From: Akkermansia sp.
Lineage (GTDB): Bacteria; Verrucomicrobiota; Verrucomicrobiia; Verrucomicrobiales; Akkermansiaceae
Length of the DNA stretch: 14,528 nucleotides
Reading direction: 5' to 3'
Assembly (NCBI GenBank): GCA_020047775.1
Contig: JAIFNK010000003.1
Coordinates: 1-14,528, forward strand
This document shows positions 1 to 14,528 of the stretch, piece by piece. The notes below the pieces were generated by a model that made no database searches, had not been told where the DNA came from, and saw nothing but the letters and a program-made list of their open reading frames with translations. Position 1 is the stretch's first letter. Every line of letters starts with the position of its first letter. A program made the translations under genes and the position numbers.

Positions 1-3000
1 GTCGCCATATCCCTTGGGTCCGATGACCATGCGACGGACGGCATGGGGTCCGAGGATTTGCGCGCGCTTGGGGTTGGCAGCGGCGAGGTCGAGCATGACT
101 TGGTCCGCCTCGCGGGAGGGTGAATAGGAAAGCGCGAGAATGACGCGGTTGAATGCCGTGGCATTGTCGGTGGCGGCTGCTTTGCGGAGGATATCGATGC
201 ATTTCGCGTCGCCGATGCGGGCGATGAGATAGTAGAGGCTATCGAGAAGATCCGGTGAAGCTCCGGATTGCAGGCTGATCAGGCGGTCGGCAACGCGCCC
301 GGCAGCGGCTGGATCAGCGATCCGCGCCAGCAAAGCATCTTCGCAAGCGATACGCTCCGCCTTGGTCTCGGCGGATTTGAGGAATGTGAGGATTTCCTCG
401 GTGACGGCATCGCCGCCGAGCGAGGAGAGTGCGTGCACGGCAGAAGCGCGCACGGCAGATGATTCATGCTTCAGTGCCTGCTTCGCGGTGTCGAGTCCTG
501 CCTTGGGCTTGGCGAGAGCTAACAATTCGAGAAGGCCGGCCCTGGCCTGGTTGTCGGCGGCGGAAGAAAATAGTTTGGCGATTTCCGCGCCCGCCATGGC
601 CTTGACAAGCGGGCTGGCCACGCGGCGGGAATGCTCGCGCAGGCGCCAGTATTCATGCCCCAAATAGGGCAGCAGGTCTTCCAGCGCATCGGGGCCGCCC
701 AGTTCGACGAGATCATCCATGGCGGCGATCTTGTGGAACGTGTCCATGCGTTCCGGGTTTGCCAGAGTGTCGCGGCAAAGCTTCATTTTCGCGCCGGTTC
801 CCTCCGCGGCATTGAGTTCAGCTTGAAAGATGCGGCGCACGTCATCGCCAATGCTGGGCATCGTGGCCGGTTTCTTGTTCTCCTCGATGGTCCTCAGCAC
901 CTTGCTGAGCGGGGTCGTCACTGCCAGCCAGTTGGTGGAATCGTCCTTGACCACGATTTCCTCCAGCGGGTTGTCGATGAGGATGGTCTTGATTTCGTGG
1001 GTGAGTCCGGCAAACACCCCGGGATTCCTGGCGACAACATCCGGATAGATGAGCGGATCCTTGAAGCCCGCTTCGGCGCGGATGTGGCGGGGAATTCCCG
1101 CCTTTTTCCGGATGCGGTATCCGTTAGACTGCGCGGATTCCAGATAACCGAACTTGCCGAGCATCGCCTGTGCGGCCGCATTCCTGGCTCCGAACATTTG
1201 GTCGAATACCTGCTCTTCCTCCGCGATGTAGGTGAGCGGGCCAGCTAGGCGGATGACGGTGTCCTTGTCCCACTCCTTGATCTTGGATTGCACCAGAGGT
1301 CCACCACCCGTGTCTTCGAGGATGAGATTGGTGAGCGCCTGCTCGACCAGGTTCTTGTCGAAGCCTGCTTGGAACGGCGCTTGGCTGAGAGCGATCTTGG
1401 AAGCCATGAAACTGGCCTGAACGGCATTGCGCACACTGTTAGGAGCAGCCGTGGACTGATTCGCCACGGTCGTCTTGAGAAGTGCGAGCTGCACCTCCTT
1501 GTCATCGGTCGCTTTGGAAACCACCTCGACGGCGGTGATCCGGATAAAGTCCTGGGGAGCCCCCAGCAACGGGATGATCTTGGACAGGTTGGAGAGCATC
1601 ACATCATTTCCACAGGCATCCAGACCACACAGGGCACCGTGGCGCATGCGGGCGTTTTCATGGGTGAGCAATGCGACAAGACGAGGCGCGATCGCGGCTT
1701 CTCCGGCCTTGAACCGTTTGCCCAACTCTGCGGCTATCGCCTTTCGAGCCTTGGGCATGAATATATCCAATAGATCAAAAACCTCGTCGGTGGAGCGTTC
1801 CACCCAAGGTTTGCCAGCAAGACCCTTGAGCCAGTCATTGTTGAACTGTGGGGCGGCGCTGGCGAGAAGCTGCTTCATTTCCCGCTCCGTAGGATAATAA
1901 CTTTCATTGGCATCCTTGCCGGTAATGAGGGTTTGTTTCAGAGTGACCGCCTGGTGAAAAATCTCGGTGGCGGTGGGGTCGCGCAGTGTCTTGTATTTGC
2001 CGGTGGGCGAATGGTAAACGAAGCTGCCGTCGTACATCCGGCAGATCGTGCGGCGCCAGCGGAGGTTGCGCTCGTTGTAGGCGCGCACCTGCGGTCCGCA
2101 AAGCCCGGCGGCCCAGGACGACCACTCGCCGTGATAGTCATGGGCGTGTCCGCCACGGCGGGTGAAGGCGCAGTGGCTGGACATCATGGCGAAATATTTT
2201 GCGCTGTAGTCGTCGCCGAGCAGTTTCATGGCGAAGGCGATACCGGTGTTTTTGCCGTTGCTATCGTCCACGCCGGCGGCGGGATGGTCGCCGTAGGGAA
2301 TCGCACCTTGATCGACATACGATCCGAAAAACCGATGGGCGCGCTTGATGGCGGCATCGATTTCCGGATGCTCGACACCGAGTTTTTTGGCGAGGACGAT
2401 GAGGAAGAAGCAGCGGTTGCCGGCGGCGTTGAGCGCACCATAGCCGGGATTCATCATGTGGAGCTGGCCGCCATTGAAGGATGGAAAGGCGAAGGTATGC
2501 CCCCAGGTGCCCGACTGGCTCTGTCCCATCGCCGTTTCTATCGCGTATTTGCGCAGGGCGGGCAGCACATACTCATCGCCGGTGGCCTCATAATACAGAG
2601 CGCAATTCAGACCGATGAAACCGTGATGCCAGCTTTGGTATCCCTTGTAGCCCTTGTAGCCCGGTTCGAACATGGCGCCAATGGCTTCGGTGGGCGGCTG
2701 CCATGGACAGTTTTTGCCGCGCACCCAGTCGTGGACGATTTTACGATGCTCGGGCTTGCCGGAGGCGATGAGTGCCATGGCTTCGATGACACCGCCTTTG
2801 CCGGAGCCAGGCATTTTGGGGTCCACGACAAACCGCTGTTCCAACACTTTCCAGGCGTCTTCGAGGATTTGCCGTGTCTTGGGGCAGTCGTAAGGGGCGG
2901 TGTCGGCGTAGGCGGGGAAGGTGCGGATTTTCAGTTCCACATCGAGGGCGACGGGGTCGATGGGGAATTTCCCCAAATCCAATTTTTTGACCTCTTCCTT

Positions 3001-3576
3001 GCGCTCTTCCTCGGGTTTCCAGTCGTAGAGCGAGTTGTCGTTTTCCGCCTCGGTGATCAGTTTGTCGATATCAGTTCCGGAGATATCCTTTTTGCCGGTG
3101 CGTGCTGGATAATTCTTATCGCGCCCGACCTGGAAGACCATTTTTCCGCCATGGTCCTCTTTTTCCGCTTCGATGATGGCGTTGCCGATGGTCTCGCCGA
3201 GATGTCCACCGGCTTGAAATTTCACGCCGTTGATTCCGGTGATGACGTCGCCGGGAAGGAACTTGCCTTCCGCCGGGGAGCCTTTGACCGCACCTGTTAC
3301 AAAGAGTTGGTCACCGGGGAACCCACCCGACATGATGCAGGAGATGCCGGTGGGGCCGAGGTGCCAGATTTGTGGCGGATTCTTGGAAACCGGGAGGGGT
3401 TGGCCCTTGGTGAGGTCAGGGAGGTTTTTGGGACGCTCCATCACATTCTCCGTCAGATCACCCCCTGCGGCGACAGCCGCCTGTTGTTCGGGCGTGACCT
3501 CGCGCTCATCGGCAGACACAGGCAATGCCATCGCCGCCAACAGCAGCATGAGGAATGGGAGAAGGAATATTTTCAT
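1..3576 (-). CDS. Secreted PDZ / DUF6288-like / HEAT-repeat protein, C-terminus beyond left edge
   Basis: The frame is open without a stop from the ATG at 3576 to base 1 (1192 codons), so the 3' end lies outside the window. Residues 1-22 form a signal peptide (MKIFLLPFLM, a hydrophobic run, then VSA before DE), which supports this ATG although no clear Shine-Dalgarno precedes it. Residues about 73-152 are a PDZ domain with the typical PGDVITGINGVKF stretch. Residues about 200-560 are rich in Gly, His and aromatics (SWHHGF, GGHAHDYHGEW near 473-485) and resemble the DUF6288 family that follows PDZ domains in Verrucomicrobia and Planctomycetes; that name is from memory, not a search. Residues about 600-700 and 950-1192 are helical HEAT-type repeats (for example HENARMRHGALCGL and HESSAVRASAVHALSSLGG). 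It is an exported protein, probably a scaffold or peptide binder. No protease or other catalytic triad is evident. It is the last gene visible in the operon, 50 bp after its neighbour. Confidence 0.85.
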   Translation of the reverse strand, partial: MKIFLLPFLMLLLAAMALPVSADEREVTPEQQAAVAAGGDLTENVMERPKNLPDLTKGQPLPVSKNPPQIWHLGPTGISCIMSGGFPGDQLFVTGAVKGSPAEGKFLPGDVITGINGVKFQAGGHLGETIGNAIIEAEKEDHGGKMVFQVGRDKNYPARTGKKDISGTDIDKLITEAENDNSLYDWKPEEERKEEVKKLDLGKFPIDPVALDVELKIRTFPAYADTAPYDCPKTRQILEDAWKVLEQRFVVDPKMPGSGKGGVIEAMALIASGKPEHRKIVHDWVRGKNCPWQPPTEAIGAMFEPGYKGYKGYQSWHHGFIGLNCALYYEATGDEYVLPALRKYAIETAMGQSQSGTWGHTFAFPSFNGGQLHMMNPGYGALNAAGNRCFFLIVLAKKLGVEHPEIDAAIKRAHRFFGSYVDQGAIPYGDHPAAGVDDSNGKNTGIAFAMKLLGDDYSAKYFAMMSSHCAFTRRGGHAHDYHGEWSSWAAGLCGPQVRAYNERNLRWRRTICRMYDGSFVYHSPTGKYKTLRDPTATEIFHQAVTLKQTLITGKDANESYYPTEREMKQLLASAAPQFNNDWLKGLAGKPWVERSTDEVFDLLDIFMPKARKAIAAELGKRFKAGEAAIAPRLVALLTHENARMRHGALCGLDACGNDVMLSNLSKIIPLLGAPQDFIRITAVEVVSKATDDKEVQLALLKTTVANQSTAAPNSVRNAVQASFMASKIALSQAPFQAGFDKNLVEQALTNLILEDTGGGPLVQSKIKEWDKDTVIRLAGPLTYIAEEEQVFDQMFGARNAAAQAMLGKFGYLESAQSNGYRIRKKAGIPRHIRAEAGFKDPLIYPDVVARNPGVFAGLTHEIKTILIDNPLEEIVVKDDSTNWLAVTTPLSKVLRTIEENKKPATMPSIGDDVRRIFQAELNAAEGTGAKMKLCRDTLANPERMDTFHKIAAMDDLVELGGPDALEDLLPYLGHEYWRLREHSRRVASPLVKAMAGAEIAKLFSSAADNQARAGLLELLALAKPKAGLDTAKQALKHESSAVRASAVHALSSLGGDAVTEEILTFLKSAETKAERIACEDALLARIADPAAAGRVADRLISLQSGASPDLLDSLYYLIARIGDAKCIDILRKAAATDNATAFNRVILALSYSPSREADQVMLDLAAANPKRAQILGPHAVRRMVIGPKGYGD

Positions 3577-3621
3577 GAAAAATCGGTTGGATGAAGGCGT
3601 TCGATGGACTGCCAAACTGCA

Positions 3622-3640
3622 CGGAATCAGGCGGATTCCG
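3622..3640 (-). other. Perfect 7-bp inverted repeat over a stop codon
   Basis: CGGAATC (3622-3628) pairs with GATTCCG (3634-3640) around a 5-nt loop. The hairpin spans the TGA stop (3627-3629) of the 390-aa gene. On the minus strand it is followed by mixed sequence without a U-tract, so it is not a standard intrinsic terminator. It might act as an mRNA processing or stability element before the last gene, or be chance. Confidence 0.3.
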
Positions 3641-4799
3641 GGGATGGCAGCATGTCGCGGGATGCGAATAGCGAAAAGCCGTTCGCTTTCGCGAGGCGGG
3701 AAAAGGATTCAAGCTCGCGTTCCGCAAGGGGGCGTTTCAGATCCCACACCACGTGCACGGTTTGGCTCACACTTGCCCGGACTTTCTTGCGCTCTTCCAG
3801 CAGTTCAAGGAACCGCGCCAGCATCCGCCCGGCGCGTTCCGGGGAATCGACCACAAAACAAGAGCGACCATACCAAAGCGCCTCAAACACGAACTCATCG
3901 CTGATGCGCCCGCCGTCCACACGCAGGACATCGACCGGGCACCAGGCCTTTCCTAACCGGGGCAGGGTCGGCGGAACCGCGGCTGCGGCCGCCGCATCGT
4001 CGGTGAGATACACAAAGCAGTCGCCGCGTTTCGCGAGCCATGCCAATTCGGCAGGCATGGCGCGGCGGGCGGGAGTGGAGCGCTCGACCACCGGAGGAAT
4101 CGCGGTGATGGAGTTGAGCCATGAACTCGGCAGCGGCAGCGGCGTGATGGCTTGCGCGTAAACATTCGCTCGTCTGAGGTAATCGACAATAATCATCAGC
4201 AGCGCCAACAGGACCAGGACGCGGATCACGGTGAGGTTCAGTCCATCGAGCCGGTGCGCCATCGCCAGATCCGCATCGGACATCAGGATCGGCGGCTTTT
4301 CCTGCTTTTTCTCCAAAGCCTCGGTCTTCACTCCGTTGATGGCTTCATCACCGCCGAGCGCGGCATCGAGGCTGCCATCGCCATCATTTGCGCCGCTGCG
4401 GGTTTTCTTCTTCTTTTTCCATTCCGGTTCGGATGCGCCATCCAGGCTTTCCAGGTATTTGAGGTCGCCCTGGTTCATGCCGGCCTTGTCGAGGAAATCT
4501 CCCGAGCCATCCTCGGCGAAACGAACATCCGCCACCTGGTCACCGCGGCCTTGTTCCGCGACTTTCAGTTTCTTCTCCTCCAGCGCCCGCGCGCTTTCCA
4601 TCTGCGCGCTGCGGTCCGGTTCGATCCGGTTCACATGCGTCTCCGAATTGATCTTCGCAAACAACAGGGAACCCAAGGCCAGCGCCAGCGCCGCCGGGCA
4701 AACCCAGTGCGAACGCCGCCTCAGCAGCCACAGCAACGGCACGCCAAACCATAACAGCACGCTGAGGTACCCAAGAAGACTGAAGGAGTTCCAATTCAT
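3627..4799 (-). CDS. Three-span membrane protein of unknown family with charged periplasmic loop
   Basis: This 390-aa protein is not recognised. Predicted membrane segments are at about residues 7-27, 33-49 and 187-208. Positive charges after segment 1 (RRRS) and segment 3 (YLRR) place residues 50-186 in the periplasm and residues 209-390 in the cytoplasm. The loop is strongly charged and low in complexity, with a run of six lysines near 128 and Asp/Gly-rich stretches. The C-terminal part looks like a compact alpha/beta domain of unknown function. The ATG at 4799 was chosen over an in-frame GTG at 4829 because its ATGA overlaps the DUF4159 gene's TGA, the usual sign of translational coupling. 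No Shine-Dalgarno is visible, which also fits coupling. Its position suggests it is a partner of the DUF4159 protein in the same inner-membrane complex. Confidence 0.8.
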   Translation of the reverse strand: MNWNSFSLLGYLSVLLWFGVPLLWLLRRRSHWVCPAALALALGSLLFAKINSETHVNRIEPDRSAQMESARALEEKKLKVAEQGRGDQVADVRFAEDGSGDFLDKAGMNQGDLKYLESLDGASEPEWKKKKKTRSGANDGDGSLDAALGGDEAINGVKTEALEKKQEKPPILMSDADLAMAHRLDGLNLTVIRVLVLLALLMIIVDYLRRANVYAQAITPLPLPSSWLNSITAIPPVVERSTPARRAMPAELAWLAKRGDCFVYLTDDAAAAAAVPPTLPRLGKAWCPVDVLRVDGGRISDEFVFEALWYGRSCFVVDSPERAGRMLARFLELLEERKKVRASVSQTVHVVWDLKRPLAERELESFSRLAKANGFSLFASRDMLPSPESA

Positions 4800-6442
4800 T
4801 TTTTCGCTTTCGCCACCGCGTCGTTCCACTGGTTGAACGCGTAATACACCAGATTGATACCGAGGTTCATGGCCGCCTCGCGCATTTCGGGAGTCACATC
4901 GGTATATCCCTGCGACTTCCAGGCGTCGTTCATGTCGCCCGGATGATAGAAGGCGATCCAGCGGCCCTCATGTTTGATACCCTGCGCGCGACGCCCGCCG
5001 TGATGCCAGAATGCGGGAGCGCCGTCGGGAAAGCCGTAGGGAAGCTGATAAATCATGTCGTCATCGGCGATGTCCATCATCGGCTTGTCCGGAAACACCA
5101 GGCGTATGAAGTGCATGAACGACTGGTGAAAGCGGGCGCTGCCGGCATCGGCGATCAACATGCCCCCGTTGAGGCAGTAGTCGCGCAGGATCTTGATGTC
5201 CGCCGGGCTGACGTTCCCCATATCCGTGTTGCCGGTGAGGAAAACAAATGGCGGGAAGCCATCCTTCGGATACTTTTTGAGCAGGGCGATCGAATGACTT
5301 TCACCCTTGCTGGCAATCTTCTTGAAGCCCGTGGCTTGCGCGAAAGCGCGCAGGAAATTGATGTCCGCGTTGGTCTGGTCCATGCCGTCATCCCAACCAC
5401 CGCCGCCGTGTTCGAGCCGGATGAAGCGCAGTTTGTAGTCCTCCATGCCCTCAGGCCAACCGCCCTCGGTCCCGCCGCCCTTGCCCATTTTCCCTCCTTT
5501 TCCTCCCTTGGTTCCCTTGGTGTTCGATGCCTGATAGGTCGCCTGGGTCTGCTCTTCCATATTCTGATCCACTTCGGCATCATCAAGGTCGGGAGTCTCG
5601 AAGATGATCGCGGAGTTAGGTCGCAGGCTGAGGGTCTTCTTCTTGGTCTTTTTCTTTTGTTTGACCATCTTGACCATCGCCACCGCCTCCACCGCTGCAG
5701 TGCCGCTGCCCTTGGGCAGTTTGTAAGCCTCCACGCTACAACCACGAAAGCTGAGAATGTAGGGGATGATGACGAGAATGATGATGTGGGTGAATACACT
5801 CGCGTAGAGACTCCGGCGATGCCGGGGATCGCGACCGTGTGTGCGAACGTCCTCAAGCACACGGTCACCAGCCATCGGGGCGCCACTCTCACGGGTGAAT
5901 GCCGCATGGACCGAGCGGCTGCGCAACATGACGTGCAGCCACGCGGCGTATCCGGCGGCCGCCAAAGCCGGCCAGCTCACATCCCACCAAAGGAACAAAT
6001 TCGCCACACTGTCCTGCTTGGCTCCATCGACATCCAGTCCGTTAGCAAGAACCGAGGAACATGCCCGCCACGTGACCCAAACGTAAAATCCTACCAGCAG
6101 ATACACTCCATAGAGCGGCAGCCGCAATGCCAGAAACGACAACCGGTTGCGCACCAGGCTACCCGCACCCGTGAGCGCACACAACACGGCCAGCACTCCG
6201 AACAGTTGGAAAACCAGCTTGATCAACGACGTGGTGTGGTCGCTCTGGAACTGGATCGCGATTCCTCCATTCCGCGTGAGGAAGGCATCAAGAGCCGGAG
6301 GCAGCCAGAAAAACGCCGCAGCAGCCAGGCCCGCCAGCATGAACACGGCGATGCTGACCAAACGCGCCTTGAAGACGGATGGACTCGTCGGAATCTCATC
6401 CATCCACTCGACGGGAATCTCGGCTGTTTTGTTTCTTATCAT
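4796..6442 (-). CDS. Membrane-anchored DUF4159-domain protein
   Basis: This is a 548-aa protein with five predicted membrane segments (about 27-47, 72-94, 106-128, 150-170 and 214-232). A Lys-rich stretch follows (KQKKKTKKKT, 261-270), then an acidic and Gln-rich stretch and a Gly/Lys linker (about 308-328). The C-terminal domain (about 335-540) matches what is known of DUF4159: an FIRLEHGGGGWDDG entry motif, then YPKDGFPPFVFLTGN, then LRDYCLNGGMLIADAG and a FHQSF...RLVFP stretch. DUF4159 is often compared with glutamine-amidotransferase-like folds, but I see no convincing catalytic Cys-His pair, so a binding role is more likely. An odd number of spans puts the N-terminus and the DUF4159 domain on opposite sides; the basic loops suggest the domain is periplasmic. 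Attachment to five membrane spans beside ExbB/ExbD is notable. The start at 6442 has only a weak GCGGA before it; Met14 is an alternative. Confidence 0.88.
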   Translation of the reverse strand: MIRNKTAEIPVEWMDEIPTSPSVFKARLVSIAVFMLAGLAAAAFFWLPPALDAFLTRNGGIAIQFQSDHTTSLIKLVFQLFGVLAVLCALTGAGSLVRNRLSFLALRLPLYGVYLLVGFYVWVTWRACSSVLANGLDVDGAKQDSVANLFLWWDVSWPALAAAGYAAWLHVMLRSRSVHAAFTRESGAPMAGDRVLEDVRTHGRDPRHRRSLYASVFTHIIILVIIPYILSFRGCSVEAYKLPKGSGTAAVEAVAMVKMVKQKKKTKKKTLSLRPNSAIIFETPDLDDAEVDQNMEEQTQATYQASNTKGTKGGKGGKMGKGGGTEGGWPEGMEDYKLRFIRLEHGGGGWDDGMDQTNADINFLRAFAQATGFKKIASKGESHSIALLKKYPKDGFPPFVFLTGNTDMGNVSPADIKILRDYCLNGGMLIADAGSARFHQSFMHFIRLVFPDKPMMDIADDDMIYQLPYGFPDGAPAFWHHGGRRAQGIKHEGRWIAFYHPGDMNDAWKSQGYTDVTPEMREAAMNLGINLVYYAFNQWNDAVAKAKK

Positions 6443-6476
6443 TCCGCGCTTATCAAACGGGCTGCACCATGATCAC

Positions 6477-6489
6477 CGGGCATCGCCCG
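6477..6489 (-). other. Small GC-rich inverted repeat in the gap before the DUF4159 gene
   Basis: CGGGC and GCCCG flank a 3-nt loop in the 49-bp gap between the stalk gene and the DUF4159 gene. No T-run follows on the minus strand, so it is not a normal terminator. It may be chance in GC-rich DNA. Confidence 0.2.
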
Positions 6490-6491
6490 CT

Positions 6492-7010
6492 TCACTTGAA
6501 GAGATCCTCCTTCTCGTCTCCGATGGAGGGCAATTCCGGCCCCGCTTCCTTGGTGTTGATCTCCTTTTCAATTTCGGACTTGGGCTTCTCCGGCACATTC
6601 GCCGCATTCGGCGTTTCTGTTTTCGGAGCTTCCGTTTTTGGCGCTTCTACTTTCGGCGCATCCGTGGCGGTGTCCTCCGCTGCCGCCTTGGGTGCCTTGC
6701 TCGCGAACCGGTCGCTGAGCTCCTGCGGCTTCAGCCCGTGTTTGCTGGCGATGTCGCGCAGGGATGCCGTCGCCTCCGTTGCCGCGAGTTCCAAGCGCTT
6801 TTCCTCACTCAATTTCGAGGAATCATCGCCCGCCACCAGTTTCCAAAGGTATGAGGTGCTCGTTAAGGTCAATCCCACCACGTGCACAACCAGTGTGAAC
6901 ATGACGATCGACTTCATGCTGCGACCCCGGAAGTTATCCATCAAATGGTCCGGGGTTGTTTCATCGATATGTATGTCTTTGGTGACTCTTGATTCGTTCA
7001 TTGGTTGCAT
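6492..7010 (-). CDS. Single-span TonB-like stalk protein without a TonB C-terminal domain
   Basis: This 172-aa protein has a cytoplasmic N-terminus of about 33 residues (ending FRGRSMK), one membrane span at about 34-57, and a periplasmic tail. The first part of the tail (about 68-105) is probably helical, and its segment LRDIASKHGLKPQELSDRF faintly resembles a LysM motif. The tail continues into an Ala/Pro/Lys/Glu stretch with APKTE-type repeats (about 118-135) and ends in a charged tail. TonB and TolA share this layout of one anchor plus a Pro/Lys/Glu or Ala-rich spacer, but the folded C-terminal domain they use to touch outer-membrane partners is missing. It could be a spacer, a regulator or an adaptor for the ExbB/ExbD motor. 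It lies 33 bp after the second exbD. The start at 7010 is supported by AAGGAG 4 nt upstream; the next Met, four codons in, is too far from that site. Confidence 0.82.
   Translation of the reverse strand: MQPMNESRVTKDIHIDETTPDHLMDNFRGRSMKSIVMFTLVVHVVGLTLTSTSYLWKLVAGDDSSKLSEEKRLELAATEATASLRDIASKHGLKPQELSDRFASKAPKAAAEDTATDAPKVEAPKTEAPKTETPNAANVPEKPKSEIEKEINTKEAGPELPSIGDEKEDLFK
6611..6664 (-). repeat. 15-bp tandem repeat encoding APKTE-type pentapeptides
   Basis: Three imperfect 15-bp units (6611-6625, 6626-6640, 6641-6655) and a partial fourth encode the Ala-Pro-Lys-Thr/Val-Glu pentapeptides of the stalk protein. Tandem units in phase with the reading frame let the stalk length change by slippage without a frameshift. 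Confidence 0.65.
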
Positions 7011-7014
7011 GGTT

Positions 7015-7020
7015 CTCCTT
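7015..7020 (-). promoter_or_regulatory. Shine-Dalgarno AAGGAG of the stalk gene
   Basis: On the minus strand AAGGAG stands 4 nt before the ATG at 7010. It is one of the two clearest ribosome-binding sites in the window and decides the start in favour of MQPMNE over the internal Met at 7001. Confidence 0.65.
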
Positions 7021-7043
7021 GATTTTTGTTAGGTTGTCCCGGC

Positions 7044-7466
7044 TTATTTTTCAGACTTTTCGCCCACTGCCTCGATGATGCCCCCGGCTTCGGCGATAGC
7101 CTGCAATATGGGTTCGAACGCCTCTTTGGATTGTAACTTGTCGCACTTGAACTGCACGTGGCGTTGATCATCGGCCACCGTGTTCGTGAGAAGGTTGCGG
7201 ACGCCCCACTCGACATCCTTGGCGCTGTCCACTTTCACGCCGTCGAAATAGATCTGCCCCGTCCCATCGAGCGCCACCCTCGCCACCACCGTGGTCTTTT
7301 GCTTCGCGACGTGCTCGGAATATGGCAGTTTCACATCAAGGTCGCTCTTGTCCTTGGAGGCCTCACTGCAGACGAGGAAGAAAATGATGAGCAGGAACGC
7401 GATGTCGCCCATGCTCGCCGTGGGGAGGGCGATCGGCTTCCGTTTTTTTCTGCGTGATCGTCTCAT
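7044..7466 (-). CDS. ExbD/TolR-family biopolymer transport protein (second copy)
   Basis: This 140-aa protein is the usual ExbD size. It has a very basic cytoplasmic start (MRRSRRKKRK), then one membrane span (about 20-34, GDIAFLLIIFFLVCSE) with Asp21 where ExbD and TolR carry their essential proton-accepting Asp. The periplasmic domain follows (about 42-135), including LDVKLPYS and a C-terminal AIAEAGGIIEAVGEK. In this family ExbD dimers sit in the pore of an ExbB pentamer and convert proton flow into movement. The ATG at 7466 is preferred to a longer in-frame start at 7511 because it follows the first exbD's TGA by one base, has GAGAAG 4 nt before that base run, and gives the normal basic N-terminus. 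It shares only the general fold with the first ExbD, so the two are old paralogues rather than a recent duplication. Confidence 0.93.
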   Translation of the reverse strand: MRRSRRKKRKPIALPTASMGDIAFLLIIFFLVCSEASKDKSDLDVKLPYSEHVAKQKTTVVARVALDGTGQIYFDGVKVDSAKDVEWGVRNLLTNTVADDQRHVQFKCDKLQSKEAFEPILQAIAEAGGIIEAVGEKSEK

Positions 7467-7467
7467 G

Positions 7468-7884
7468 TCACTTCTCGTTTTCCACAATCGCCACCACGCC
7501 GCCGTGCGCACTGATGGCGGCCAGGGCCTGGAAATAGTTTTCGTATGAAGTGCCCCGTGCGGATTCCAACATGATCACCCGCTTGTTGCCATCCTGCTCG
7601 CCCAGGTTCAATGCCGCCAGACGCTCGTTGAGCGCGCCAATTTCCATCTTCTGGTCATTGAAGAAAAGCTCCGAACCGCGCAGGTTCACGATCGACGTCT
7701 TCTCAGGCTGAGCCTGTGTTGTCTTCTCGCCGGAAGGCAGATCAGCGGTGATGGACCTCACCTTGGTCAAGGTGGTCGCCAGGATGAAGTAAATGATCAG
7801 AAGAAACGCGATGTCGGAAAACGAGTCCGTTGGAATCGCGAGGTCGCGATTCTTCTTCTCCTTGGTGTGGCGTTTCCGGGGCAT
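7468..7884 (-). CDS. ExbD/TolR-family biopolymer transport protein (first copy)
   Basis: This 138-aa protein begins with a basic cytoplasmic tail (MPRKRHTKEKKNRD), then IPTDSFSDIAFLLIIYFI. Asp24 is at the position of the essential membrane Asp of ExbD and TolR. The periplasmic part carries ITADLPSGE just after the span and ends in QALAAISAHGGVVAIVENEK, a typical ExbD C-terminal fold. Its ATG shares one base with the ExbB stop (TGATG), so the two are translated in tight coupling, as expected for subunits of one complex. Family knowledge places it in an ExbB5-ExbD2-type motor driven by the proton motive force. Whether it pairs with itself or with the second ExbD cannot be told from sequence. 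Confidence 0.94.
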   Translation of the reverse strand: MPRKRHTKEKKNRDLAIPTDSFSDIAFLLIIYFILATTLTKVRSITADLPSGEKTTQAQPEKTSIVNLRGSELFFNDQKMEIGALNERLAALNLGEQDGNKRVIMLESARGTSYENYFQALAAISAHGGVVAIVENEK

Positions 7885-8528
7885 CAGTGGTGCGTCAGAA
7901 TGAACTCCATGACCTCGCCGGTCGCCTTTTCAATCTCAAGTTCGATCTCGTCGGACCAGCGGTTGTAAACGCTTTGGGGGATGACCGCGGAGAGGGCGAT
8001 GAGCAGTCCCGCCGCGGTGGTGATCAATGCCTCGGCAATCCCGTTAGCCACCGTACTGCCTCCGCCGCCGACACTGCCCGCCTCGGCCAGACCGGCGAAG
8101 GACGCGATCATACCGGTCACGGTTCCCGTCATTCCCAACAAGGGGGCGGCCACGCCGACCGTGGTCAGCACATCGAGGCGCTTGCCCACAAGGCTGATGG
8201 CCTGCGCACTGTAGTCCTCCATCACTTGTCCGACAACCATACGCATGGTCTCCGCGCTCTCGTTTCTGGAACTGAGGAGTTTGTAGGAGAGCAGGCCCGC
8301 CAGCAGGACCGAAGCAATCGGACCGCTGGAAGCTTCGCACTCGGAGATCGCGCCGGAGACGTTGTTCTCACGCAAATGAGCGAGCACATTGGAACGCAGT
8401 GACCGTGTATCAATCTTGCGATTCGCCCGGAAGGCCTGCCAACGGTCGTAAACCACCGCCAAGCTGACCAAACTGCACAGCATCAACGGATACATACATC
8501 CGCCGCCTCTAATAATGGTATCTATCAT
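7884..8528 (-). CDS. MotA/TolQ/ExbB-family proton channel protein
   Basis: This 214-aa protein has three predicted spans (about 12-30, 122-146 and 163-188) with a cytoplasmic region between the first two. Hallmarks are VAAPLLGMTGTVTGMIASF at the second span and GIAEALITTAAGLLIALSAV at the third, both diagnostic of the MotA/TolQ/ExbB family, including the polar Thr residues that line the channel in ExbB. It is close to TolQ and ExbB in length and lacks the long N-terminal extension of some marine or Bacteroidetes homologues. The protein forms the pentameric stator around the ExbD pair. It starts 15 bp after the 126-aa gene, with only a weak GGA upstream, and its stop overlaps the first exbD. 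ExbB, TolQ and AglR-type roles cannot be told apart here, so no symbol is given. Confidence 0.95.
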   Translation of the reverse strand: MIDTIIRGGGCMYPLMLCSLVSLAVVYDRWQAFRANRKIDTRSLRSNVLAHLRENNVSGAISECEASSGPIASVLLAGLLSYKLLSSRNESAETMRMVVGQVMEDYSAQAISLVGKRLDVLTTVGVAAPLLGMTGTVTGMIASFAGLAEAGSVGGGGSTVANGIAEALITTAAGLLIALSAVIPQSVYNRWSDEIELEIEKATGEVMEFILTHH

Positions 8529-8543
8529 GTTTTTATTTCCGGA

Positions 8544-8924
8544 TCAGGGTTGGGTAGTCAGAGTTCGCTTATCAGGTTTCATCAACCTGTGTTCATGAGG
8601 CATTGCAAGAAGATCAAGAACGCTCAGGGCTTCACCGGGTTTCAGGGCCAAGCGGTTGAAGCGGAGGGTCTCAACAGGTTTGATCATCAATTCGCCGACA
8701 GCGTGGCTATAGTAGCTGGCTTGGCAATCCGCAATCGCGACGCGCTCGAAATAACGGCGGCGGGCGACGGCGAGAAGGATCAGTTCGTCGCCGACGACGC
8801 ACAACCAGACCGGAGTGCGCCGCCACCAGCGACCGGCGTCGATGCGGGTCCCGGTGCGGATGCGGAGTCTCGGCTCGGCACCGCCGGTTTCCTCGCGCAG
8901 AAGTTGTTGCTCGAGCTCGTTCAT
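8544..8924 (-). CDS. Small protein of unknown function, coupled to the giant TPR gene
   Basis: This 126-aa protein is not recognised with confidence. It lacks a signal peptide and a clear membrane span; the one hydrophobic stretch (VWLCVVGDELILLAVA, about 39-54) looks like paired beta strands. The central part (about 25-105) alternates strands and ends in a helix (GEALSVLDLLAMP), a pattern resembling bacterial PH-like domains; this is a guess from pattern only. It is probably cytoplasmic or bound to the inner-membrane face. Its ATG overlaps the TGA of the giant gene (ATGA), and a perfect AGGAGG lies 10 nt upstream, so translation is both coupled and independently primed. Sitting between the large exported protein and ExbB, it could be a cytoplasmic regulator of the motor. 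Confidence 0.75.
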   Translation of the reverse strand: MNELEQQLLREETGGAEPRLRIRTGTRIDAGRWWRRTPVWLCVVGDELILLAVARRRYFERVAIADCQASYYSHAVGELMIKPVETLRFNRLALKPGEALSVLDLLAMPHEHRLMKPDKRTLTTQP

Positions 8925-11900
8925 TTCTTCCGCGCCTCCTTGAGTGATTCGATCATGCGTTCACGCTCCTCGTTTTCAGCATTGATGATCTTCTCGAACA
9001 CCGGATCGGCAAGCCTGCCGCGGGCGTATTTCGCCCAGACGCTGTCCGGGAAGTCGAAGGTGACGCGGCGGTAGAGCTGATAGGCGGAGCCGATGGCTTC
9101 CCCGCGGCCTTTCCAGTTGTCCTCGGACATCAGGCCGGCGAGACGCTCGTGACTGAGGCCGCACCAATAAACCGCCTGCGAGCGGATTTCCCGGTCATCG
9201 TAGGTCTCGTTTTCAAACGCGATGGTAAACGCCTTGATTGCCTTCTCATACTGGAGGGCGCGCATGTAGTTCTGCGCGGCGCGCAAGCCGGCGAGTCCGG
9301 CGAGCGGGTCTTCCGGGAAACGCTGCTGCATCTTCGCGAAGACCATGGCGGCATTAAGGAACTCCGGATAGGAAAGCCCGTCGAGGCGCAGCACCTCCGC
9401 TAGGGATGCTTCATCCTTTTTTTCGCGCAGCGCATCGGCCTGTTTCTTGAATGAAAGCCCCTTCTCCTGGAAGTAGCCGCCCAAGCGGGACATCACCGAG
9501 GGGATCAGTTCGTTGTCCGGATATTTGTAAGCGAGCTTCACATATTCTTCGACGGCATTCTCGGTCTCGCCCATCTTTTCATAGACGAGCGCGGTCTTGA
9601 ACTGGGCCTTGGGAGCGAACTCGGTATCCGGATAATCGCTGGGGATTTTCGAAAACCTCGCGAGCGCGTCCTGATACATCGGAAGCTTGGCCTCCTCGTT
9701 CTTCGAGAGGTCCGCATACTCCTGAGCGAGGTTTCCCAACAAATACTCGGCGTGGGCGCGCATCCCGTCATCGCGATGGGTGGCGATGGCCTCGGCCAGT
9801 AATTTCCGCGCCTGTGCCATCTCGCGGCGGGCGAGGCTTTCCTGATCCATCTCGCGGTGTTTCTTCGCGAGTTCGAAGAAGCATTCCGCGAGGGTGAAGC
9901 TGGTTTTCACCGCCATCTCGTCGCCGGTGAAACGCTTGCTGAAGGGCTCGATGAGACCATCCGCGCCCATGTTCACCGTGATGGAGTGGGACTGGGTTTG
10001 TCCGTTTGCGGCATAGGCGATTTCCACTTGGTCGCCGTAGCGCACCGGGAAGCCGTTGAGGGCGACCGGCGGCAATTTCGCGGGTAATTGCTCCGCGGCG
10101 TAGCTGAGAGAGAAGACCCCTTTGAAAATGCCGCTGTGGGATTCGGTTTCCTGGAGTTGATAGTCCGTCTTCGCGCCGCTCTCCGCCTTGAGGGAGACCG
10201 AGGCCATGTCGCGATCCGGCCCCCGGTCGAGGCCGCGGTCAATCAGGCGGATGGAGATCTTTTCCCCGACGAATGCCTGGGCGAGCGCGTCATGATAGCT
10301 TCCTTCCATCACGTCGAGGAAGGCATGGCTTTCCACCTTGAACGCGGTGGTTTTCCACTGGATCTGATCCTTCGCATCCTTGTAGGGGTAGCCCACGTGA
10401 ATGAGATCTCCGGCCTTCACTGCAAGTCCGTCGGGGATCGCGGAATCCGCCAAGGCCTCGGCGGCATTCGTCGCAAAACTGCGGTCCGGCAGATCGCCGA
10501 GGATCAATGGAATGGAGAACGTGAAGCGCCCTTCTTCGAGTGGCGGCTCATTGGTGGGGGCAACCGGACCTTTGCCGATCTGATAGCCACTTGGCACCAG
10601 CACTTCCTGTTTGGTGAGTGCGCCCTTCAATTTGAGCGTGCCCGGCGCGGCGACATCGAAGGGCGGCTTCGCGCCCTCCTTGACCGCCTTGCGTCCGGCA
10701 TCCGTCTGGACATAGGCGTTGATTTCGCTGCTGCCGGCCAAGGCGAGATGCGGCACCACCACATCGAAGCGCAGGCTGGCACCGACCACCGCGACGTGTG
10801 AATCCCCGGCTTTATCCGCATGATTGTAGTTGAGCGTGCGGCGGGGCGCGACGACTTCCGCATTTGACGCCTTGGTGGTTTTGGCGGACGGAGAGGCGGC
10901 GGACGCCGCGGCCTTGGGCAGCGCATCGCTGGTCATGTGATACGCCGCCAGCACGGGCTCCTGATAGGTGGCTTGTTCGATCACCACCGTGCGCTCGGTA
11001 GGGATTCCCGGGCTGAGGTTTTCCACATCGCGATAGGTTACGGTTAGATGCCCACCCTCGGCGACGGTCACTTCGGATGCGCGCGCCGGCGCGCCGGTCA
11101 CGGGGAAGACCCGGCCGAGGAAGCGGCCGCTGTGTTCCTCGGTCTCCACCGCCTGGATGGTGGCGGTGCCGCCGCTGCTGCTTGCCACCTTGAGCTCGAC
11201 GATGTCCTTGTCCGGACCGCTGTCCATGTCCGCGTCGTCGATGACGATCGCGACGGCATCGTCGTAGCGGAAACGGCGGATCGGCTCCAACAACAGTTCG
11301 CGGCCGGCTTCGGTGGTCTTGTAATTGAGGAATGAGGCGGTGATGACCGCGTCATTGAAGGCCACGGTCAGTCGTTGTTCGTGGCGGCTGCGCTTCGGAG
11401 TCGCCGAGCGCGCATCCTCGTAACGGGCGGTGATCTGGTCGCCGGGCAGCACCTCAAGCTGGGTGTTTTCCCGCAGCGACATGTAGTCTTGTGAAACAGG
11501 CAGAAGCGCTTTGCCGCCGCGGTCGGTTAGGGTGACTTTGCGGATCGTCGGCGCGACACCTTCGAAGCCGTGGATCACCAGACGGACCAACCGCGCTTGG
11601 GTTTTGTCGCCGAAGGCAACAGCCATCATGCCATCAGCGGATGGCGTGAGCGTTGCGAGCTGAGGAATCATCGCCCGCGCATCATCCGGGAATTTCGCGG
11701 GATCGAACATCGTGTCCGGGCATGGAACGAGATCCTCTTTTCCGGATTCATCCCCCATCAGAACAGGCTTGGATTTCAGCAAAGCATCTCGTCCCGCGTT
11801 GCGCCAGATCTGGATCTCATGCAGACCGGGGCCAAGCTCGCGCTCGATGAGCAGCGGGTTTTCCGCATCCTTGGCGGCGGGCGTGCCGTCCAGCAGGAAA

Positions 11901-14528
11901 ATCGTCTGGCCGTCATCAGGATAACCCGTGAGTTGGAAGCGGCGGATGGCGGCGGCGGGTTGATGGAAGAGCGCGCGGTAACGGATGAGCGCTCCGTAGG
12001 CGGGGTGGCTGGGCATGACGACCGGCAGTGGTTCCGCAGAGAGGGATTTCACCTTGGCGGAAAGGTAGGTGATGGAACTACGGTTTGAAGAGTATTCCAT
12101 GATCTCCCGCCAGTCGGCGGGGAGTTCGCGGCTTACCGGTTTGGTGATGGCCATGGAATTTGTGCCAAAGAGTGGGAATGAAGTGACGAGCGGCGAACCA
12201 TCCCACACGGGAGTGGTCTCCGGGTAGCGCGCGCGAGTGGTCCAGTTCTTGCCGTCCATCGAGGTTTGGAGAACGAAGCGCGTAAGCCGCTGACCCGCCT
12301 CGCCCATGTCGATGTTCATCTTGTCGAGCGCGACATTGTCGTTGAGGTCGATGCCGAAGATGCGGGCGGTTTCCGCGTTGCCGACATTCCCTTGCCATCC
12401 GGGATATTCCTTGGCGCTGATCGCCATGTTAGGATCGCGGCCGGGCGCGCTTTCCGAAGCAAAGGCGAGCGCCTGGGCACCGGTGGTCGGCACCACGCCC
12501 TCGAACTCGCCGCTGAACGACGAGGTTTCCTTGAGCACAAGCTGGCGGATGACATCGCCGCTGGAAGTTTGCAGGCTCACGGTAACCTCGTCGATCTGTG
12601 GTGTGATGCTGTGGTCGGGATCGGTGACGCGCAGATAGACCGGATTCCCCGGGCGCACGGCGCGGGTGCCAAGAGCGGCCTGCGCGGTGGAAAGCCCGAG
12701 TTCCTCGATGTTGAGGCGGCGCTCGCCCTCCCGCGGTGGAAATGCGCCGGCGGAAAACGCGAGCCGCGCATCGGACGCCACGCCGATCACCACATTCGGA
12801 TTGGCGGGCAGATCCTTCATCTTGGCGCGGAAACGTTCCGAATAACCGAAGCGGATCTCATCCTCGCCGAGAATTTGTAAAATCTTGTCACCGGGTGTCG
12901 GTGGTCCGAGAGCGGTGGGCACTTCGGCGCGGAACTTCTCCTTGCTGTCGCCGAGTTGATAGAGAAGCACGCGTTCGCTGTCGCCGGATTTCGCCCGGAT
13001 CTCGACTTCGATGTCGGCGCCGACGCCGGAGACGTTGAGCGTGGGGTCGCGCAGGTTGATTTTCACCGCCTCACCGGGAACGATCATGGTTTTGTCCTGC
13101 GAGGGTCCGAGTTCGATCTCGGAGGCCTCGACGAGCTTGCGCATTTCGAAGTGGATCTGGCCGCGGAGGATCAGCGCGTCCGCGTGCTTGGGTTCCTGGC
13201 GCAGGACCTGCTCGATTTCCTCCAGCGCCTCGGCATAACCCTCCTGATCCATCAACACCTCGGCACGCGCATAGCGGACCCGTTTGCGGAAATCCGGATT
13301 CTTGAGCTTCATCAGGATGTCGAGCTCGGTCATCGCGGCACCGAAGTTTCTTGAAACGCGATCCACCTTCACCGATCCGAGGGCGGCGATGAGGTGCATT
13401 TCCGAGCCTTCATATTCGGCGGCTTCGGCGACCTTGCGATACCATGCCCGTGAGGTGGGAAGCGCGCCCTTGCGGAATGCCAGGTCGGCATAGGCGATCT
13501 TGAGCCGCGCGTCTTGTTCGAGGCTGAAGGTCCCCTCGGCCTGGCGCGACCAGATCGTGAATTCCTTGATCAGGTTCTCGGCGTCCTGGTCGCGGCTTTC
13601 GTCGATGTTGCGCTGAAGCAGCCAGAATCCGTATTCCACCGAAAGCGAACGCAGCACGGGGATGAGTTGATCCTTGTGGGCGAGATAGAGCTGCCATGCG
13701 GACTCCGTGTTTCCTAACACAAACTCGGAATTCGATTTGTAGATCGGCCAGGCGGGATTGGTCTCATCAACGGGAATCTCAACAGCACCGAGAGCGGCGG
13801 CGGTTTTACCGGCCAACTGGCGGAGGCGGCCGTTGATCTGGACAACGGACGGTTCCGTGCGGACCGCCATCGCCTTCACCGCTCCGCTCTTGAGCCCGAT
13901 GCGCGCCACCGTCATGGCGGCGGATGAGGCACCGGCTTCATTCGCGGCTTCGGCGAATTTGAGCAGCGCATCGACACCCGCATAAAGGCGTTCGTCATCG
14001 GTGGAACCCGCCGCCTTCCACAGGCCGGCGGCATAGGGTTCGATGGCACCCCATTGCTTTTGTTCCCGGAACTCCTTCGCCAAACGCACCACCAACGACT
14101 CGTAGCCAGCACGAGCCGGATAGGCGGCAAGCGGCGCATTCTCGCGGAATAGGGACAACACGAGATTGCGCGACCCCGGAGACCATTCTGGCATGGAGGC
14201 AACCGCTTGCAGTCCCGTCACCGTCACCACCCTGGCGGGCGTCTTGGAAACACGTCCCATCACCGCTTGAAATGCGGCCTCCACCTGGGCGGGAGCGGAG
14301 TTCGGCGGCAGGGCAAGCAGCTCGCGGCTGATGTCGCCCCCGGCATCTCCAGTTAGAGGTCCGAAGTGCTGGACGTCCACCGCCACGGCGCGGTAGTCGG
14401 CACCGAGTTTGGCATAGGCGGGCGAACCGCGCAGCGATTCGAACAACTCGCGGGCTGCCGGCGTGCGCGGGTCCACACTGTGCAACCACATGCCAAAAAT
14501 GGTTTCGGAAATCTGCCCGGCCTGGGCC
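8921..14528 (-). CDS. Giant TPR and beta-sandwich envelope protein, N-terminus beyond right edge
   Basis: The frame is open to the right edge. The first in-frame ATG (14491) has no Shine-Dalgarno or signal peptide, and the codons before it read as ordinary protein, so the true start is probably outside; at least 1856 residues are present. Numbered from that Met, residues about 130-460 are helical, with a clear TPR at 400-455. Four divergent beta modules follow at about 474-526, 615-672, 1078-1131 and 1411-1461. The last three share a D-x-D start (VTDPD, DDADMD, DRGLDRGPD) and an ET..hSG.F.G ending, like repeats in large bacterial surface proteins. Residues about 695-800 resemble a discoidin-like sandwich, and 834-898 (YPDDGQTIFLLDG, then GPGLHEIQIW) a PA14-like domain. 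Residues about 1530-1835 are TPRs of the YbgF/BamD type (GETENAVEEYVKLAYKYPDN). It is likely a periplasmic or outer-membrane scaffold of the ExbB/ExbD system. Confidence 0.88.
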   Translation of the reverse strand, partial: AQAGQISETIFGMWLHSVDPRTPAARELFESLRGSPAYAKLGADYRAVAVDVQHFGPLTGDAGGDISRELLALPPNSAPAQVEAAFQAVMGRVSKTPARVVTVTGLQAVASMPEWSPGSRNLVLSLFRENAPLAAYPARAGYESLVVRLAKEFREQKQWGAIEPYAAGLWKAAGSTDDERLYAGVDALLKFAEAANEAGASSAAMTVARIGLKSGAVKAMAVRTEPSVVQINGRLRQLAGKTAAALGAVEIPVDETNPAWPIYKSNSEFVLGNTESAWQLYLAHKDQLIPVLRSLSVEYGFWLLQRNIDESRDQDAENLIKEFTIWSRQAEGTFSLEQDARLKIAYADLAFRKGALPTSRAWYRKVAEAAEYEGSEMHLIAALGSVKVDRVSRNFGAAMTELDILMKLKNPDFRKRVRYARAEVLMDQEGYAEALEEIEQVLRQEPKHADALILRGQIHFEMRKLVEASEIELGPSQDKTMIVPGEAVKINLRDPTLNVSGVGADIEVEIRAKSGDSERVLLYQLGDSKEKFRAEVPTALGPPTPGDKILQILGEDEIRFGYSERFRAKMKDLPANPNVVIGVASDARLAFSAGAFPPREGERRLNIEELGLSTAQAALGTRAVRPGNPVYLRVTDPDHSITPQIDEVTVSLQTSSGDVIRQLVLKETSSFSGEFEGVVPTTGAQALAFASESAPGRDPNMAISAKEYPGWQGNVGNAETARIFGIDLNDNVALDKMNIDMGEAGQRLTRFVLQTSMDGKNWTTRARYPETTPVWDGSPLVTSFPLFGTNSMAITKPVSRELPADWREIMEYSSNRSSITYLSAKVKSLSAEPLPVVMPSHPAYGALIRYRALFHQPAAAIRRFQLTGYPDDGQTIFLLDGTPAAKDAENPLLIERELGPGLHEIQIWRNAGRDALLKSKPVLMGDESGKEDLVPCPDTMFDPAKFPDDARAMIPQLATLTPSADGMMAVAFGDKTQARLVRLVIHGFEGVAPTIRKVTLTDRGGKALLPVSQDYMSLRENTQLEVLPGDQITARYEDARSATPKRSRHEQRLTVAFNDAVITASFLNYKTTEAGRELLLEPIRRFRYDDAVAIVIDDADMDSGPDKDIVELKVASSSGGTATIQAVETEEHSGRFLGRVFPVTGAPARASEVTVAEGGHLTVTYRDVENLSPGIPTERTVVIEQATYQEPVLAAYHMTSDALPKAAASAASPSAKTTKASNAEVVAPRRTLNYNHADKAGDSHVAVVGASLRFDVVVPHLALAGSSEINAYVQTDAGRKAVKEGAKPPFDVAAPGTLKLKGALTKQEVLVPSGYQIGKGPVAPTNEPPLEEGRFTFSIPLILGDLPDRSFATNAAEALADSAIPDGLAVKAGDLIHVGYPYKDAKDQIQWKTTAFKVESHAFLDVMEGSYHDALAQAFVGEKISIRLIDRGLDRGPDRDMASVSLKAESGAKTDYQLQETESHSGIFKGVFSLSYAAEQLPAKLPPVALNGFPVRYGDQVEIAYAANGQTQSHSITVNMGADGLIEPFSKRFTGDEMAVKTSFTLAECFFELAKKHREMDQESLARREMAQARKLLAEAIATHRDDGMRAHAEYLLGNLAQEYADLSKNEEAKLPMYQDALARFSKIPSDYPDTEFAPKAQFKTALVYEKMGETENAVEEYVKLAYKYPDNELIPSVMSRLGGYFQEKGLSFKKQADALREKKDEASLAEVLRLDGLSYPEFLNAAMVFAKMQQRFPEDPLAGLAGLRAAQNYMRALQYEKAIKAFTIAFENETYDDREIRSQAVYWCGLSHERLAGLMSEDNWKGRGEAIGSAYQLYRRVTFDFPDSVWAKYARGRLADPVFEKIINAENEERERMIESLKEARKK
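8935..8940 (-). promoter_or_regulatory. Shine-Dalgarno AGGAGG of the 126-aa gene
   Basis: On the minus strand AGGAGG lies inside the end of the giant gene, 10 nt before the ATG at 8924. It confirms that the small gene is translated and that its start is the ATG overlapping the upstream stop. Confidence 0.6.

Follow-up and report, generated by a model that had tools for sequence, protein, structure and literature searches.

Contig JAIFNK010000003.1 of an Akkermansia sp. metagenome-assembled genome (GCA_020047775.1, 57% complete; contig C283 in our numbering) is 14,528 nt long, was analysed in full and is hereafter called the window. It carries a run of eight minus-strand genes that probably encode an accessory, proton-driven machine for transmitting force across the cell envelope, of a type marked by a membrane protein with a DUF4159 domain. 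Judged by gene content, the set looks like one assembled around an inner-membrane proton motor related to those behind TonB and TolA, and kept in distant bacteria of the Planctomycetes–Verrucomicrobia–Chlamydiae (PVC) group. The genes encode, in order, a giant exported protein, a small soluble protein, ExbB, two ExbDs, a stalk protein, the DUF4159 protein and a three-span membrane protein, with at most 49 nt between neighbours. The successive spacings are −4, +15, −1, +1, +33, +49 and −4 nt, and a further +50 nt separates the three-span gene from a gene for a DUF6288 protein. These families, their order and their overlaps had been proposed in a sequence-only reading of the window, and they were borne out: a Pfam scan supports ExbB, both ExbDs, DUF4159, the TPR repeats of the giant and DUF6288. 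The stalk, small and three-span proteins gave no Pfam match above cut-off. A promoter scan for operon breaks found no sigma-70-like site in positions 3300–9200. Terminator-like sites numbered 17, as against 5.9 (sd 2.8) in shuffled sequence, although such matches are no evidence of function.

The motor and its gene neighbourhood

The ExbB/TolQ/MotA-type subunit (7884..8528; PF01618, E 1.3e-22) matches solved ExbB and TolQ structures, and its best model is TolQ (TIGR02796), at 96.6 bits, below the cut-off of 221. In the open reading frames (ORFs) of relatives, T136 is kept in 66/66, E166 in 63/66 and T171 in 66/66 sequences; these Thr, Glu and Thr residues align with the proton path of ExbB. 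Two ExbD/TolR-type subunits follow. The first (7468..7884; PF02472, E 2.6e-15) matches solved ExbD (E 6.2e-5), and the second (7044..7466; PF02472, E 4.5e-14 when scanned from 7511) found no relative when searched alone against solved structures; from the spacing, its start is more likely at 7466 than at 7511. Both carry a membrane Asp, which is kept in 140 of 142 ExbD ORFs, the remaining two being gapped there. All residue counts given here and below cover ORFs whose best label was the family in question, with DUF4159 rows shorter than 350 aa excluded. By these residues, the proton motor looks intact.

We searched 84,980 species genomes with an alignment of the DUF4159 protein; 109 stretches matched, 101 of which encode a relative, and the best 80 were kept. 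The gene order is kept in 79 loci, assigned by submitter titles to Verrucomicrobiota, Planctomycetota, Lentisphaerota, Kiritimatiellota and other groups, and in further relatives. Family models were built from the window and the fetched stretches, and ten of the 79 loci are contigs that were also used for the models (L107, L108, L112, L115, L129, L140, L151, L158, L180 and L182). Counting only genes on the same strand, and only loci with enough flanking sequence, we found upstream of the DUF4159 gene an ExbB in 59/62 loci, an ExbD in 62/65 (two or more in 61), a stalk in 61/72 and a giant in 50/57. The small protein is present in 43/60 loci, and the three-span gene lies downstream in 51/66. 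The loci lacking ExbB and ExbD (L142, L143 and L175) match the query only from residues 318, 296 and 268 on, and therefore share roughly the DUF4159 domain alone. Loci counted as lacking the giant are L142, L143, L145, L162, L163, L172 and L175; in L162 and L163 a giant is present further upstream than the counting limit. A separate branch of 16 rows often has a second arrangement, consisting of giant, TPR1, TPR2, ExbB, ExbD, ExbD, stalk and DUF4159 without the three-helix (three-span) and small proteins; L172 and L174 of this branch have other upstream genes. The neighbours of ExbB and ExbD do not, in other words, vary freely across genomes, and since distant genomes keep the same order, the arrangement appears to be more than chance.

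The presence of the genes is also correlated. In a survey of 288 genomes of the phylum, the giant (>100 bits) and a membrane DUF4159 protein (E <1e-50) share an identical set of 14 carriers (Fisher p 4e-24, uncorrected for kinship and assuming that both searches covered the same 288). At E ≤0.001 the giant search matched 79/288 genomes, the matches outside the 14 being weak and mostly to TPR. The DUF4159 search matched 118 of 387 genomes at E ≤1e-10 and 24 at E <1e-50. Within the genus, a full-length DUF4159 protein is found in 7/25 genomes, the window's own included, several genomes in these surveys being incomplete. One genome of the genus (G309) has a diverged DUF4159 protein, accompanied by an ExbB, ExbDs, TPR proteins and a giant of its own. 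Carriage of the unit's genes by 14 phylum and seven genus genomes suggests that the unit is accessory. Plasmid carriage was rejected, as the single match among 72,556 plasmid records covers only the DUF4159 domain (28% of the query).

We also considered that the genes are neighbours through common regulation only, without their products working on one another. That the unit is known from its genes would suit this explanation; the order is nevertheless kept in distant groups, starts and stops overlap, and the genes are present and absent jointly. We regard it as very improbable.

The DUF4159 tree is not cleanly sorted by submitter labels, some of which may reflect wrong bins. The Planctomycetota-titled loci L125, L130, L131, L132, L135 and L139 form one clade within a Verrucomicrobiales-like branch, which suggests either transfer or wrong bin labels. 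In addition, Verrucomicrobiales genomes (L077, L078, L080, L090, L092 and L222) carry a diverged second copy of the machine, in which the stalk-like protein is a different one, of 150 aa. In L218:1551-12745 and L163:11421-18736, the DUF4159 operon has close to it another ExbB unit, which includes TPR proteins and a squalene-cyclase-like protein.

Two putative transducers

The stalk (6492..7010) has one helix near its N-terminus, a low-complexity arm rich in Pro, Ala and Lys, and a conserved acidic C-terminal tail that is of an EDLF type in the window's branch and of an LGISLDDT type in others. It had been described as TonB-like but lacking the TonB domain. That lack stands, since neither the stalk nor the DUF4159 protein gave a TonB_C match in Pfam at E up to 1; the description needs correcting in that the helix keeps a TonB/TolA-like histidine. 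This residue, His43, is present in 66/67 stalks, and Ser51, the second Ser, at +8 from the histidine, in 67/67; the second Ser of TonB is at +11. Against solved structures the stalk found no convincing relative (best E 0.16).

The DUF4159 protein (4796..6442; domain E 2.9e-29, in the C-terminal part) shows four segments by hydropathy. Its AlphaFold model has five long membrane-type helices (residues 23-57, 70-97, 100-133, 145-173 and 212-232), in agreement with the five spans of the sequence-only reading. The helices are followed by a linker of ~90-100 residues, modelled with low confidence, and by a head that is glutamine-amidotransferase-like (PDB 4i66). This layout of helices, low-confidence linker and globular head is as in TonB and TolA. 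The last helix, helix 5, carries an S-x3-H motif, with the His in 66/78 proteins and the Ser four residues before it in 69/78; Ser or Thr occupies the position four before the His in 47/67 stalks and 70/78 DUF4159 proteins. We conclude that two inner-membrane proteins of the set, the stalk and the DUF4159 protein, appear in most members to carry a histidine helix of the TonB/TolA kind.

Two further observations concern the DUF4159 protein. A Gly-Cys pair encoded at 5738-5743, conserved just after helix 5, resembles a lipobox within a multi-helix membrane protein; it is possibly a genuine one, and is kept in many rows and missing in others (for example, L074 and L085). Separately, the DUF4159 membrane protein of Haloferula helveola (P0084) is publicly labelled a lytTR family transcriptional regulator, a label that is most likely wrong.

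Exported giants and the larger unit

The giant of the window (giantB; 8921..14491) is an exported protein with TPR, S-layer-like and discoidin/CBM32-like domains. Because the window is an entire contig, the N-terminus of the giant and the C-terminus of the DUF6288 protein are incomplete; close relatives of the giant have ~2460-2550 aa. TPR_16 and YfiO scored above the Pfam cut-off and F5/8-type-C below it. Near the C-terminus lies a YbgF/CpoB-like TPR (58.2 bits, below the cut-off of 90.1). Complement-type Ig-like chains are also in the Foldseek list of the giant, with TM 0.10-0.12 on the model, and were set aside as generic folds.

In close relatives the order runs TPR1 (~600 aa), TPR2 (~775 aa), giantA, giantB, small protein, ExbB, ExbD, ExbD, stalk, DUF4159, three-helix protein and DUF6288. 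The sequence-only reading had placed the limits of the operon at 3627..14528, with eight genes; these limits were too narrow, as the set takes in DUF6288 on the downstream side and, on the upstream side, TPR1, TPR2 and a second giant. All ten relatives of the window's type with sequence fetched that far (G304, G317, G291, G288, G353, G168, G059, G270, G276 and G098) have TPR1 and TPR2 upstream. Two giants flank TPR2 in G270. Four genomes (G168, G059, G276 and G098) have a unit of ten genes, with a single giant and no DUF6288. The genome of the window encodes TPR1, TPR2 and the beginning of giantA on a separate contig (C332), with identities to five relatives of 56-70%, 72-80% and 54-61%, respectively. 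The giants are well conserved, giantB at 63-71% and giantA within the range just given. We conclude that the unit probably comprises 10-12 genes, including the exported TPR1 and TPR2 and often a second giant. TPR1 was considered as a counterpart of the three-span protein, and this was ruled out because Pfam shows TPR. Very large ORFs of other types adjoin the operon in L223:255-8090 (PQQ/MG2-type, 2611 aa) and L151:12967-17109 (PA14-type, 1380 aa).

The remaining proteins of the window are less readily placed. The small protein (8544..8924; 126 aa) has no hydrophobic segment, is probably cytoplasmic and found no relative among solved structures. The three-span protein (3627..4799, the start at 4799 being more likely from the spacing) belongs to a family without a name; as had been read from the sequence, it has three hydropathy segments, and a conserved FAED segment lies between helices 2 and 3. 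A search found 270 relatives of it, and a precomputed Pfam domain is given for one of the 120 that were listed; against solved structures it found no convincing relative (best E 0.33). The DUF6288 protein (1..3576; PF19805, E 1.1e-80), with PDZ and HEAT parts, is likewise encoded on the minus strand and is exported, having a signal peptide as judged by eye; its gene is present in 27/59 loci, all in the window's own, Verrucomicrobiales-like branch; only there is it part of the unit.

Together these parts suggest how a force-transmitting machine of the DUF4159 type might work. ExbB and an ExbD1-ExbD2 pair would form a motor of the 5:2 type, on which the histidine helices of the stalk and the DUF4159 protein would dock, a step proposed from the motifs. 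Proton flow would then set two periplasmic parts in motion, the arm of the stalk and the DUF4159 head. The conserved acidic tail of the stalk may be held by a TPR module, the candidates being the CpoB-like TPR near the C-terminus of the giant, TPR1 and TPR2, so that the exported scaffolds, TPR proteins and giants, would receive force from the stalk tail and the DUF4159 head. Through its discoidin/CBM32-like and S-layer-like domains, the giant might transmit the motion outward to a target that bears glycans. We consider the motor step likely. As to load and purpose we can only guess, placing the handling of glycan polymers first, then movement, then envelope upkeep; the most likely use, as a guess only, is that the machine captures or handles such polymers on the surface of the cell.

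Several observations weigh against this interpretation. The DUF4159 helix-5 His is missing in 12/78 proteins, of which ten belong to the tree's second branch, and in a further Verrucomicrobiales type it is missing from both putative transducers in L077 and L080 and from the DUF4159 protein in L078. Among 11 TonB_C proteins of the same genomes in which the helix is visible (L225-L236, of which L231 gave no ORF), eight lack a His and three (L230, L234 and L235) have one only at the helix edge, as judged by eye; hence a transducer is not reliably recognised by the motif in these genomes. The S-layer likeness covers domains, not the whole chain of the giant (Foldseek TM 0.12-0.16), and discoidin folds also bind partners other than sugars, an APC/C subunit being in the same match list. 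The giant search scored two candidates per genome and may therefore have overlooked a giant. Among the products of the set, no protein was recognised as an outer-membrane barrel, and the single envelope-spanning complex of the sequence-only reading is putative.

The giants could instead serve gliding or surface movement, with the motor dragging them along the wall as in AglRQS/Glt or GldLM machines. PMC9389320 describes the AglR-AglQ-AglS gliding motor as one MotA/TolQ-type and two MotB/TolR-type subunits, as here, and exported giants with S-layer-like and discoidin-like domains would suit such a role. The TPR part of the giant also matched PorW/SprE, but very weakly (E 0.0054; 15.4 bits, where the cut-off is 250). 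However, no motility family scored above cut-off in our scans, whose queries did not include Glt and Gld proteins, and no partner protein common to AglRQS and the DUF4159 unit was recognised, Glt proteins again not being queries. The giants are, moreover, better conserved than we would expect of adhesins. We consider a gliding function unlikely.

Comparison with Ton, Tol-Pal and vWA systems

The Ton and Tol systems are the best-studied periplasmic force systems with this kind of motor. The DUF4159-type set shares with Ton the motor families, the conserved proton-path residues and a helix His in the likely transducers, but differs in having no TonB C-terminal domain and no receptor. The sequence-only reading had held that the set matches neither Ton nor Tol-Pal, and consistent with this, no Pfam family for a TonB domain, plug, TolA, TolB or Pal was found among the window proteins. 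Relatives give the better test for a receptor, because the contigs of the window's own genome are short. In nine genomes, we found no TonB_C, plug or OmpA/Pal match on the operon contig, except in the single-contig genomes G291 and G353, where such matches lie >150 kb away; for the plug, this means none on the operon contig in seven genomes and none near the operon in these two. The window's own genome (G000) encodes a TonB-dependent receptor, a TonB_C protein, ExbB and ExbD in a row on contig C250 (L089), which is its ordinary Ton system. These results bear on a specialised TonB-like uptake, in which the motor would work an outer-membrane polymer channel and the giant would be a substrate-binding scaffold. 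TonB domain, plug and barrel were not recognised in the set, and the nine genomes have their plug and TonB_C matches in other places; uptake of this kind is, in our estimation, rather unlikely.

The likeness to Tol-Pal consists of the TolQ model for ExbB and the CpoB-like TPR of the giant, both below cut-off as given above. These would suit a machine for envelope upkeep that connects the inner membrane with the wall and the outer layer while cells grow and divide. TolA, TolB and Pal, however, are not among the window proteins (TolB without a genome-wide search), and the DUF4159 unit is patchy in both phylum and genus. We consider upkeep doubtful, more so than gliding.

An anti-phage (Zorya-like) reading was dropped for lack of PADLOC support: in a scan of the nine window proteins at E ≤0.01, the one PADLOC model matched was for HEAT repeats, in the DUF6288 protein (E 0.0003).

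The closest published relatives are the vWA force transducers, described in 2025 in a paper (PMC12204202) that argues for more periplasmic force systems in PVC bacteria. According to that paper, TolA and TonB share residues required for motor binding, and vWA transducers have a conserved His, in an SHLS motif, at the same site. The set had been called undescribed. For the gene set this holds within the open-licence PubMed Central papers searched, where neither a description of it nor DUF4159 as a term was found; the general plan was published in the 2025 work. In vWA systems and DUF4159 loci alike, a TPR gene, a TolQ-like gene and two distinct TolR-like genes lie upstream of the gene for the transducer, and the vWA transducer has a helix His, a disordered linker and a head that is neither TonB nor TolA, with carriers among PVC bacteria. 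In contrast, the DUF4159 head has a glutamine-amidotransferase-like rather than a vWA fold and sits on a five-helix protein, and the unit additionally encodes a stalk as a protein of its own, the small and three-helix proteins and S-layer-like giants. VWA_2 matches are common near the operon (seven genomes), with no consistent link seen. In G059 a vWA gene (C117:57523-59074) adjoins a separate ExbB at ~17 kb beyond the operon, a pairing also seen in the published vWA systems, and in G168 two vWA matches lie ~2-3 kb past it. Because its head differs and it has extra parts, we conclude that the DUF4159 unit follows the same plan as the vWA systems without being a member of that family.

The locus encodes a transducer with a different head alongside what is probably its load, the giants, and places DUF4159, the three-helix family and giant TPR proteins in one shared, testable context; carriers include strains such as Haloferula helveola and Rubritalea profundi. 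We suggest tentatively, and at clearly less than even confidence, that a further class of proton-driven periplasmic force machine exists beside Ton, Tol and vWA, in which a TolQR-like motor moves 2500-residue TPR/S-layer-like scaffolds, often paired, through two transducers simultaneously, the tailed stalk and the glutamine-amidotransferase-like DUF4159 head, as a gene cassette of scattered PVC bacteria.

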